Shown here: positions 4,179-17,607 of the stretch, in pieces
How positions within the stretch are numbered: the stretch's first letter is position 1
Layout of the letters: each line of letters starts with the position of its first letter
Assembly: GCA_029556545.1 (NCBI GenBank)
Contig: JAKQEQ010000119.1
Span: 1 to 17,615 of the forward strand
Direction of reading: 5' to 3'
Source of the DNA: Candidatus Hydrogenedentota bacterium
GTDB taxonomy: Bacteria; Hydrogenedentota; Hydrogenedentia; Hydrogenedentales; JAGMZX01
Length of the DNA stretch: 17,615 nt
Made by a program: the position numbers and the translations under genes
The notes under the pieces: generated by a model
Database searches by the model: none
Told to the model about the DNA's origin: nothing
What the model saw: the letters and a program-made list of their open reading frames with translations, nothing else

Positions 4179-6896
4179 ATGGGGATCGTGGTGGGAATGG
4201 TCGCTATGGCGACGCTTCACGGCGTCGCGGCGCAGAATGTTCCCATGGAGAACCCTTCGTCCGTGCCGGAGTATCTGAAGGTCGCGGGGGACGCGCTCTA
4301 TTTCACGGCGGACGACGGTATCCATGGCCGGGAACTCTGGAAATGGGAGTTCCCCGAAGATGTCGCGGCGGAGGACCGCGCGAGCCCGCACATCGCCGCG
4401 TCGCGCGGCCGGGCGCGTCTCGTGGCGGACCTGACGCCGGGACCGCAAGGCGCCAACATCAATTACATATTGAACTGTCATAATATCCTATATTTCTATC
4501 CCACGCTCGAAACGCACGGCAGAGAACCTTGGTATTACGACCCGGCGCGGGATGAGGTCCGTGCGTGGGATTTCCGGCCCGGGCCGGAATCCTCGGGAGC
4601 ATCCAACGCCTTTCCCGTCAAGAACGGGATGGTGGCCGTGGTTGCGGATGACGGCGTTCACGGGCTGCAGCTTTGGGCGGGCCGGGCCGGGTCCCCCGAG
4701 ACCGCATTGATCTCCCCGCAAACGTCGCTGCCGCCCAGCGCACGTATCCTGGGATACGTGGCGTCCGACGGATTTCTGTACGTGGTGACCGGGCACGGCC
4801 TTGCCCGCACGGACGGATTGGACGTCGAAACGGTAGTTGATTGGCACAACCTCGACGTGTCGGCGAACCAAATCTGGGACATCGATGGCCGCCTGCTGTT
4901 TCTGGGCATGACCCCCGAGTACGGAAGCGAGTTGTGGATTCTCGATGATTCTCCAAGCGGTGCGCGCCTGCTGAAGGATATTGCGCCCGGCGCCACCACG
5001 TCCGGACCGGAATGCGGCTGCAATTGGAGGCAGTGCTTCTACTTCAACGCCGATGACGGCGAACTCGGCAGGGAACCGTACCGGACGGACGGGACGCCCG
5101 ACGGCACGGTGCTGCTCAAGGATGTGAACCCCGGAAAGACGGGCAGCAATCCCCATTACTGGGCCGCGGCCGACGATTTCCTTTACTTCGTCGCCGATGA
5201 CGGCGTTCACGGGTATGAAATCTGGCGGACGGACGGCACGCCCGACGGCACGACCCTCGCGGCCGATCTGTACCTGGGCGAACAGGGGTCGGACCCGTGG
5301 TCCCTCACCGCGTACAAGGGGCGGCTCTTCTTTTGCGCAAACACACCTGCTTACGGGGAAGAAATCTTCTTCACCGACGGGACCCCCGAGGGCACGGGCA
5401 TTCTGCGCGATATCGTTCCCGGCGCCGGGGACGCCGGTCCTGACAATCTGACGGTCTTCGGCGATCTACTGTTTTTCACCTGCAACGACGGGTTGCACGG
5501 CGAGGAACCGTGGGTGACCGACGGGACTCCCGAAGGCACCCTGTTGGCCGCGGATATCGCGCCAGTTCGGGTGAATCCGTCTTCTTCCCCGCGACAATTG
5601 ACTTCCATCGGCGACGTCATTGTGTTCACGGTCAGCGACATGGCGCACGGCGAGGAACTGTGGACGAGTGACGGGACCGAGGCGGGAACCGTTCTCGTGC
5701 GGGACATCGCGCCCGGGCCGGCGCACTCGGCTCCGAGAGATATCACGCCCTTTGCGGGCAAGGCGCTGTTCTCCGCGTTCACGCCGGAGGCGGGCCGGGA
5801 ACTCTGGGTCAGCGATGGAACCGTCGAGGGCACGAAACAGGTTTGTGACCTGTGGGAAGGCCCGAACTCGGGCGAGCCGCGCCATCTGCTCTGGTGGAAC
5901 GGTCTGGCGCTGTTCACCGCGGACGACGGACTCCATGGACGGGAACTGTGGCGGTCGGACGGGACGGCGGAAGACACACGCATGATCCTGGACGCTACGG
6001 CAAGGCCGGACGGGACTGCGTTCGTGAGTCTCTTCGTTCTTCGAGGAAAGGCGTATTTCTATACGGGCGATCCGCCGAATGAGATCACGCTTTGGACCAC
6101 CGACGGCACGGAAACCGGTACATACGCCCTGTTGCGTCTTGCTTATCCCTACTATGTCGGGGACCCGGATGAACTCGGTGACTTCCCTCGTCTCGGCGAG
6201 GGCGTCATTCCGTTGCGCGAGGACCTGTCCGAAGAGGCGTTGCTGGCGGCCGTGATGTACCCGTGCAGCCCGGACTACTCACTGGAAGCCCCCGTAACCG
6301 TGGGCAATCTAACGTTCTTCGCGAGCCACACGCGCCGTTACGGGACGGAGTTGTGCCGGAGCGATGGCACACTGTCCGGCACGGGCATCGTATGGGATGC
6401 GTTTCCGGGTCCGGGCAGTTCGAGTCCGTCGCAGCTTGCGGTAGTGCGGGGCCGGGTGTACTTCGCTGCGGACCATCCTCGCGAGGGCCGCGTGCTGTGG
6501 CGCACGGACGGTACGGAGGCCGGCACGAATTTCCTTACGCCGTCATTCGGCGACCGTGTATCGCCCCCGATTCCCGTGACGAACGTGGTCGCGAACGATC
6601 ACTTGCTGCTTGTGCTCGGGGCCTCTCCCGAGCAGACCAGACTGGGCTACAACTTGCTCAGCCTGATCAGACCCGGTGAGGAACAGGACGAGCGGTCCAC
6701 CGTGCCGGCTGACAAGCGGGCCTCGCCGGGACCGCCACGGCATCTGGTGATCACGCAAGACAAGGCGTATTTCGCCGCGGACGACGGCGTGCATGGCGAG
6801 GAGCTCTGGGCATACGATCCGACGCCGAGCGACCCGCCGCCGATGACGTACCTGGTTAAAGACATTCTGGTCCCGGGCGATTTGTCTCCGAAATAG
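4179..6896 (+). CDS. Secreted ELWxxDGT-repeat protein
   Basis: This is a 905-aa protein. ATG 4179 has GAGG (4168-4171) seven bases upstream. A short signal peptide is visible, MGIVVGMVAMATLHGVAA-Q. Nearly the whole mature protein is about 14-15 repeats of roughly 48 residues. They have the pattern (H)GxELWxxDGTxxGTxLxxDIxPGxxxSxPxxL, then a hydrophobic strand and ADDGxHG. Clear copies are GYEIWRTDGTPDGT, GEELWTSDGTEAGT, GRELWVSDGTVEGT and RVLWRTDGTEAGT. The ELWxxDGT family is taken to form beta-propeller-like surface proteins, but its biochemical function is not established. The first three units are divergent and the last ends as ELWAYDPT. No C-terminal anchor is seen. It lies 40 bp after the sensor kinase and may be its extracytoplasmic partner; that link is inference from position. 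Confidence 0.9.
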   Translation: MGIVVGMVAMATLHGVAAQNVPMENPSSVPEYLKVAGDALYFTADDGIHGRELWKWEFPEDVAAEDRASPHIAASRGRARLVADLTPGPQGANINYILNCHNILYFYPTLETHGREPWYYDPARDEVRAWDFRPGPESSGASNAFPVKNGMVAVVADDGVHGLQLWAGRAGSPETALISPQTSLPPSARILGYVASDGFLYVVTGHGLARTDGLDVETVVDWHNLDVSANQIWDIDGRLLFLGMTPEYGSELWILDDSPSGARLLKDIAPGATTSGPECGCNWRQCFYFNADDGELGREPYRTDGTPDGTVLLKDVNPGKTGSNPHYWAAADDFLYFVADDGVHGYEIWRTDGTPDGTTLAADLYLGEQGSDPWSLTAYKGRLFFCANTPAYGEEIFFTDGTPEGTGILRDIVPGAGDAGPDNLTVFGDLLFFTCNDGLHGEEPWVTDGTPEGTLLAADIAPVRVNPSSSPRQLTSIGDVIVFTVSDMAHGEELWTSDGTEAGTVLVRDIAPGPAHSAPRDITPFAGKALFSAFTPEAGRELWVSDGTVEGTKQVCDLWEGPNSGEPRHLLWWNGLALFTADDGLHGRELWRSDGTAEDTRMILDATARPDGTAFVSLFVLRGKAYFYTGDPPNEITLWTTDGTETGTYALLRLAYPYYVGDPDELGDFPRLGEGVIPLREDLSEEALLAAVMYPCSPDYSLEAPVTVGNLTFFASHTRRYGTELCRSDGTLSGTGIVWDAFPGPGSSSPSQLAVVRGRVYFAADHPREGRVLWRTDGTEAGTNFLTPSFGDRVSPPIPVTNVVANDHLLLVLGASPEQTRLGYNLLSLIRPGEEQDERSTVPADKRASPGPPRHLVITQDKAYFAADDGVHGEELWAYDPTPSDPPPMTYLVKDILVPGDLSPK

Positions 6897-16084: not shown

Positions 16085-16093
16085 TGCTATACT
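16085..16093 (+). promoter_or_regulatory. Extended -10 promoter candidate for mntA
   Basis: TGC-TATACT is an extended -10 element (TGn plus 5 of 6 matches). Transcription would begin near 16100, about 30 nt before the mntA ATG. No -35 is evident, which is common for extended -10 promoters. Confidence 0.45.
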
Positions 16094-16129
16094 GGAAAGT
16101 CGCATCCGCCGGAAACGAGGTCTTCGAGA

Positions 16130-16429
16130 ATGCAGTTGCCCATTGAAATTGATAGCGAACGGATAGCGGCGTCTTGCGGTAAACACCACATCACTAAACT
16201 CGCCCTGTTCGGGTCCGTGCTGACCGAGCGCTTCGGGCCGGACAGCGACGTGGATGTCCTGTTCGAATACCACCCCGAGCACGTCCCCTCGTTGTTCGAA
16301 GTGGTCCGCATGGAGCGGGAACTGTCTGAAATCCTGGGCCGCAAAGCGGACATGCGGACCCCCGAGGATCTCAGCCGCTACTTTCGCGACGAAGTGGTGC
16401 GGCGCGCGGTGGTGCAATATGTCGCATGA
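16130..16429 (+). CDS. mntA: MntA-type minimal nucleotidyltransferase (antitoxin)
   Basis: This is a 99-aa protein with the nucleotidyltransferase signature GSX10DXD: G28-S29, then D40 and D42 (GSVLTERFGPDSDVD). A third acidic residue, D74, follows in RKADMRT, so the catalytic triad is complete. In HepT/MntA toxin-antitoxin pairs, MntA transfers AMP groups from ATP to a Tyr next to the HEPN RNase site of HepT and so silences it. The C-terminus (FRDEVVRRAVVQYVA) is typical for the family. The partner gene overlaps its end by 11 bp, the usual layout. The partner is truncated, so this antitoxin may now be an orphan. The ATG has GAGG about 12 nt upstream; it is probably transcribed from the extended -10 element at 16085. 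Confidence 0.88.
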   Translation: MQLPIEIDSERIAASCGKHHITKLALFGSVLTERFGPDSDVDVLFEYHPEHVPSLFEVVRMERELSEILGRKADMRTPEDLSRYFRDEVVRRAVVQYVA

Positions 16430-16577
16430 CGTCGACCCGAATCGGCTGCGGCACATGGTGGATGCCGTTCGGGAAATCCTCGATTTCGTGGGCGAACGTG
16501 ACCGGCAGGCACGACGGATCGAGCAGACGCCCCTCACCCTGACCTTCTCCGTTATAGAGAGAGTCCTTGACGAATAG
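16419..16577 (+). pseudogene. hepT: Truncated HepT (HEPN/DUF86) toxin
   Basis: The 52-codon frame starts at ATG 16419 inside mntA. Residues 8-27 (NRLRHMVDAVREILDFVGER) match the first helix of DUF86/HepT proteins, which are normally about 110-120 aa. The frame then runs into QTPLTLTFSVIERVLDE and stops at a TAG that lies inside the three-way-junction repeat. The HEPN active site (RX4-6H, with its adjacent Tyr) and the whole second half are absent, and no HepT remnant is visible beyond the repeat. The product should lack RNase activity. The last 16 codons may themselves be repeat-derived; alternatively they are the true second helix of HepT cut just before GEA. Either way the gene is disrupted. 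Confidence 0.75.
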
Positions 16578-16638
16578 GAGGTGGGGCGTCCCGCCCCACA
16601 GTGTCGGGGGCAGGATGCCCGCGCTCCTCCTATGCGCA
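16569..16638. repeat. Interspersed repeat copy 2 (three-way-junction fold)
   Basis: This is the second copy of the element at 1570-1636. Hairpin one is GTGGGGCG-TCC-CGCCCCAC (16581-16599). Hairpin two is CGGGGGCA-GGA-TGCCCGCG (16605-16623, one mismatch). The outer stem is AGGAG/CTCCT (16576-16580 with 16624-16628). Its left edge supplies the stop codon of the truncated hepT frame. The element separates hepT from rmlA. Confidence 0.85.
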
Positions 16639-16654
16639 CCTGAGCGCGGCGGGT

Positions 16655-16725: not shown

Positions 16726-17607
16726 ATGAAGGGTGTAATTCTGGCGGGCGGTCTGGGTTCGCGGCTGTTGCCGTTGACGCGCGTGACCAATAAACACTTG
16801 CTCCCCGTCTATGACAAGCCGATGATATATTATCCCCTTTCGGCACTGATGCTTGCCGGCATACGCGATGTACTGATCATCTCCACACCGCGTGACCTGC
16901 CCAGTTTCAGGGCCCTGCTCGGCGACGGCAAAAGGCTGGGAATGGAGTTCTCGTACCGTGAACAGCCCTCCCCTGACGGACTGGCACAGGCATTTATTAT
17001 CGGTGAAGATTTCATAGGCAGTGACAACGTGTGCATGATCCTAGGCGACAATATCTTTTATGGAGACCGTTTAAGGGCCATCCTTCAAACGGCAGCAGCG
17101 AATAATAAGGGGGCTACGATTTTTGGATATTATGTGAAGGACCCTGAACGTTACGGAGTGGTTCAGTTTGATTCTTCCAACAAGGTGATCTCGCTTGAAG
17201 AAAAACCGGCCCAGCCTCAGTCCAACTGGGCTGTCACAGGCCTATATTTTTATGATCAGAATGTCGTGGAATACGCCAAGCAGGTCAAGCCATCTCAGCG
17301 GGGAGAGCTTGAAATTACAGACTTGAACAAATTGTATCTGGAGAAAGGCGCGTTGCATGTGGAACTGCTGGGACGAGGGTATGCCTGGCTTGATACAGGC
17401 ACGTATGAGTCGCTGATCAATGCGTCTCTTTTTATTAAGACCATCGAGGACCGCCAGGGATTAAAGATCGGATGCGTGGAGGAGATCGCTTATCGTATGA
17501 ATTATATTAGCGCTGAACAGCTGACAAAAATGGCACATCAGATCAAGACATCGTATGGTGAATATCTTCTCCGCATTGTTCAGGACAAAATATTGAATTC
17601 TTTGTGA
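16726..17607 (+). CDS. rmlA: Glucose-1-phosphate thymidylyltransferase
   Basis: This is a complete 293-aa enzyme that makes dTDP-glucose and PPi from dTTP and glucose-1-phosphate, the first step toward dTDP-rhamnose and other deoxysugars of surface polysaccharides. The start has AAGGGA (16713-16718) seven bases upstream. Visible signatures are the nucleotide loop [11 protein letters not shown] (8-18), K23 in [28 protein letters not shown] with D108, [30 protein letters not shown] and [12 protein letters not shown] replaces the common SKQ near residues 22-24. Length is normal. GC content falls from about 63% in the first codons to about 42-48% over most of the gene, with more TTA, ATA and AAA codons than its neighbours, which suggests horizontal transfer. 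A dTDP-sugar cluster probably continues to the right. Confidence 0.96.

Follow-up and report, generated by a model that had tools for sequence, protein, structure and literature searches.

The window, here the whole stretch of DNA that was analysed, is the entire 17,615-nt contig C28 of a fragmented assembly (6.1 Mb in 195 contigs). Towards its 3' end lies an antitoxin gene, mntA, overlapped by what is left of its toxin gene, hepT, which in turn runs into two dispersed repeats. The features are as follows.

16085..16129, + strand: region 5' of mntA with an extended -10-like TGCTATACT, shared with the genome's other orphan mntA
16130..16429, + strand: mntA, antitoxin gene, intact, 99 aa, minimal nucleotidyltransferase (Pfam NTP_transf_2 and GSX10DXD)
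16419-16577, + strand: hepT ORF, 52 aa, overlapping mntA, with a TAG stop at 16575-16577
16419..16526, + strand: hepT remnant, toxin codons 1-36, by HepT family profile match and alignment
16527..16577, + strand: remaining 16 codons of the 52-codon ORF, repeat-derived, overlapping elements A and B, no HepT homology
16530..16563 (core 16530-16550), + strand: element A, one of the dispersed palindromic repeats with consensus ACCCTCACCCTGACCCTCTCCCTCGGGGAGAGGG, here degenerate
about 16567..16640, + strand: element B, the dispersed repeat named in the first-pass annotation, a strong hairpin

MntA (16130-16429) matches Pfam NTP_transf_2 (E 4e-12) and retains FGS-X10-DVD, in which FGSVLTERFGPDSDVD corresponds to the GSX10DXD motif expected of the MNT protein in class I HepT/MntA pairs. 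This motif is shared with the class I HEPN/MNT pair of Shewanella oneidensis (SO_3166/SO_3165; PMC7641770). The aspartate of the downstream RKADMRT is kept too, so that the first-pass annotation was right to credit MntA with all its catalytic residues. The protein is 61–83% identical to its relatives, and the closest named relatives of the gene are from Hydrogenedentota MAGs. Three relatives of MntA, 57–60% identical, are also present in one WOR-3 MAG of another phylum (L133, L134, L142), by transfer or binning error. Upstream of mntA, a TGNTATAMT-type motif lies at a distance of 30–55 nt in 16 of 32 paired and 10 of 23 orphan loci. MntA additionally matches the PADLOC candidate defence family PDC-S09 (E 2e-21); however, the broken HepT partner leaves this two-gene system incomplete in the window.

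The overlapping two-gene arrangement is present, with hepT starting at 16419 inside mntA (stop 16427-16429), and most relatives have the same offset. This mntA-hepT overlap order is a likeness to the S. oneidensis pair and to the relatives, the intact members of which carry RX4HXY and PF01934. The 52-codon ORF reported earlier is confirmed, with the correction that only ~36 codons are HepT and the final 16 derive from repeats. A Pfam search of the 52-aa ORF gave no match, and the remnant came to light only with a family profile. Built from intact HepT relatives, this profile matches 16419-16526, corresponding to positions 1-36 of 116 (E 6.7e-5).

Class I HepT is defined by RX4HXY, the tyrosine of which is adenylylated by MntA (PMC7641770). 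In the intact HepT family this motif forms the invariant columns 76-83, which are absent from the window remnant, in line with the original observation that the RNase site and the tyrosine modified by MntA are both gone. Intact relatives score above the Pfam HepT-like cut-off, nearly all with RX4HXY, and thus display the HEPN domain (PF01934) with RX4HXY beside an MNT protein that the window lacks. As the defining HepT motif was looked for and is missing, the window locus is not a functional class I member. A remnant with neither RNase site nor acceptor tyrosine leaves the locus without a toxin, and MntA without a local substrate. The window hepT, cut after about codon 36, differs in this from that of S. 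oneidensis, and of the two halves only the antitoxin could still work. A functional short HepT was considered and dropped, as the short form occurs in no relative and codons 37-52 are repeat. A short HepT conserved among relatives, which the first-pass annotation had named as evidence against decay, was not found. Three MntA-paired and otherwise full-length HepT proteins (L019, L030, L209) carry the motif changes His to Arg, Tyr to Ser, and Arg to His, and therefore some paired toxins may also be inactive.

HepT homology stops ~3 nt before element A and ~45 nt upstream of element B. Allowing ≤2 mismatches, the 21-nt core of element A has 32 matches in the genome versus 0 in controls, a few of the 32 falling in low-complexity coding runs, while the core of element B has 36 versus 1. 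Copies of element B that were inspected and compared by eye are usually intergenic. The window has another copy of element B at 1570-1635, adjoined by tandem short repeats at 1669-1868, CAGATTT-type and then CTGGTCC/CTGATCC-type. The hepT stop codon had been placed within a three-way-junction repeat. The repeat itself is real and its left edge provides the TAG of the 52-codon ORF, but the junction was dropped as the favoured fold: element B folds at -43.3 kcal/mol (z -4.5), and the predicted minimum-energy structure of both window copies is one long hairpin.

The 3' half of hepT was sought in the 1.2 kb downstream of the cut and not found. Because the 3' end is missing downstream, a deletion is proposed instead of a simple insertion, on the strength of this missing end and with no orthologous intact locus to define the exact event. 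The deletion would have removed the 3' two thirds of hepT, joining codon 36 to the downstream repeat cluster. It is possible, albeit unlikely, that element A or B inserted into hepT first and that the hepT 3' part was lost afterwards by deletion or erosion. Such an order of events would fit five truncated loci, from four genomes, in which the repeat starts no more than ~15 nt from the cut. However, nothing of the hepT 3' end is detected beyond the cut in any of the five, no target-site duplication can be seen, there is neither an empty nor an intact orthologous site for comparison, and the inspected repeat copies are mostly intergenic.

Association of repeats with the breakpoints was assessed by asking, at 17 truncated loci with cut positions set by eye, whether the first 80 nt beyond the cut are multicopy in the same genome; the 80 nt after 17 intact hepT genes served as controls. 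Multicopy sequence lies at the cut in 5/17 truncations (the window, C100, G009, G032, and G043) versus 1/17 controls (one-sided Fisher p = 0.087). Three of these five had caught attention before the test was designed, so that the test and the idea behind it are not wholly independent. The association of repeats with hepT truncation breakpoints is suggestive but not significant. The first-pass annotation had taken the locus as direct evidence of gene disruption by the repeat (or by a deletion ending in it). This is only partly supported: the break is at element A and not at the repeat that was named, the hepT 3' end is absent, and the association across relatives is no more than suggestive.

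Downstream of the repeats, a nucleotidyl transferase gene (PF00483) occupies 16726-17607, with the contig end 8 nt beyond it. Elsewhere in the window, a 905-aa ORF at 4179-6896 contains repeated units like DDGxHGxELWxTDGT, ~48 residues apart. The proximity of the contig end, the drop in GC to 54% downstream compared with about 64% in the rest of the contig, and the multicopy nature of elements A and B could all be accommodated by an assembly artefact in which two loci were misjoined at a repeat. Nonetheless, the longest exact string that the junction shares with the other repeat copies compared is 27 nt, which is short for a misjoin and hence makes misassembly at the repeat unlikely. The hepT cut also precedes both repeats, and independent truncations occur at another site in this genome and in relatives. 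Assembly error at the repeat, the caveat attached to the locus from the outset, is on these grounds highly improbable.

One of these truncations lies on contig C100 of the same genome. It is a second orphan mntA, 79% identical to the window gene (72% by blastn for window 16085-16430 against G000:C100), and in its hepT the break comes after ~7 codons, at a member of a third repeat family (58 copies). As both the cut and the repeat differ from those of the window, the two losses look independent. Just 3' of this second orphan mntA, at 4369-5163 (L221), six GTCATTCCCGCGAAAGCGGGAATCC-type repeat copies surround a GIY-YIG-like ORF (4569-4862, named by eye). The same genome also contains three intact HepT genes, each with an adjacent MntA. 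The search for a second hepT without mntA, proposed in the first-pass annotation, thus came up empty.

In a sister species of the same genus (G001), mntA is truncated, its DXD is changed to DXG, and there is no hepT (L202, G001:C101, minus strand, about 1973-2155). This is a later stage of decay. The G001 copy of the gene upstream of the window locus is followed by unrelated DNA with no mntA. A tblastx comparison of synteny with the sister species was discarded, as it returned only noise apart from one orthologous neighbour.

A survey of 68 genomes of the order places the locus in a wider series. It recovered 61 loci of this MntA subfamily, 36 with a full-length HepT, 24 without, and one at a contig end, so that about 40% (24/60) of the scorable loci have no full HepT. 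The 24 deficient loci divide into six with stops or frameshifts, five with an N-terminal remnant, and 13 without profile-detectable HepT, several of which still begin with recognisable hepT codons. Conversely, no full-length HepT scoring above 100 bits was found without an adjacent MntA in the set of 60 relatives, with adjacency matched by hand from two tables, except for two at contig ends. Read-through stops were recorded in 16 HepT rows versus none of the listed MntA rows, some of the 16 being natural C-terminal ends. As MntA is often without a full HepT, and in the set checked a strong full HepT inside a contig is never without MntA, the toxin therefore goes first in HepT/MntA decay. Toxin-antitoxin pairs are expected to break down in this order: were the antitoxin lost before the toxin, an RNase would be left unneutralised, which is why MntA lasts longer.

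Orphan antitoxins are familiar from Klebsiella (PMC7192599) and from marine MAGs that include Hydrogenedentota (PMC12654330), and are also described in PMC7354431, while a literature search on toxin-antitoxin systems in Hydrogenedentes returned nothing relevant. Many have been read as remnants of degraded pairs (PMC7192599, PMC12654330). The window mntA resembles the Klebsiella and marine-MAG examples in having no toxin partner, and the locus shows what identifies an orphan antitoxin, an intact antitoxin ORF adjoining a broken toxin. It differs from them in belonging to the HEPN/MNT family, in having a toxin remnant that is still readable, and in that both halves were counted across the order. 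With a probability of roughly 0.8, the locus is best explained as a degraded class I HepT/MntA pair. The description of a decaying addiction module given at first sight agrees with the intact mntA, the hepT remnant of codons 1-36, and the loss of the toxin first across the order. The surviving MntA would be expected to decay next, as in the sister species.

A different fate for MntA has to be weighed, in which the orphan is retained by selection for anti-addiction or immunity and adenylylates the HepT of incoming elements or of other pairs in the genome. The promoter-like and catalytic motifs are kept, and anti-addiction by an antitoxin has a precedent in CcdA (PMC7354431). A codon model of 56 labelled mntA sequences, comparing orphan with paired terminal branches, gave a dN/dS of 0.083 (about 0.07–0.10) for orphan branches versus 0.072 for paired ones, which are not different (2dlnL 1.3); the window branch alone has 0.058, below 1. 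However, the orphan branches are long and mostly probably predate the toxin loss, so their low values cannot show selection once the toxin was gone. The mntA of L014, the one short orphan branch with an intact sister, has a dN/dS of about 1 (2dlnL 5 versus the background value, from few substitutions) compared with about 0.1 in that sister, L015. The L014 hepT is relaxed too, but the hepT estimate for L015 is also high, making this pair weak evidence. The mntA of L021 is likewise raised relative to its sister L017, and the mntA of the sister species has decayed.

Tests of selection are unable to demonstrate a function for which orphan MntA is kept. The suggestion that the antitoxin could protect against a related incoming toxin is possible but unsupported, as none of the tests speaks for a retained function and the only short orphan branch seems to be relaxed; retention by selection in the window is improbable. 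The broader notion that orphan MntA proteins across the order are kept as shields against the HepT of incoming elements or neighbouring pairs, with repeat-driven toxin loss building a stock of protective antitoxins, is speculative and quite improbable. For orphan MntA, the evidence leans towards decay and away from a retained shield, short of proof.

The single window locus is itself ordinary. The wider value of the analysis lies in a decay series that can be counted, from 36 whole pairs through 24 antitoxin-only loci and 0 antitoxin-free full toxins inside contigs to an antitoxin that has itself decayed. This series comes from one of the commonest toxin-antitoxin families and lends support to the order of loss that was expected; the survey also yields candidate orphan MntA proteins for anti-addiction testing.
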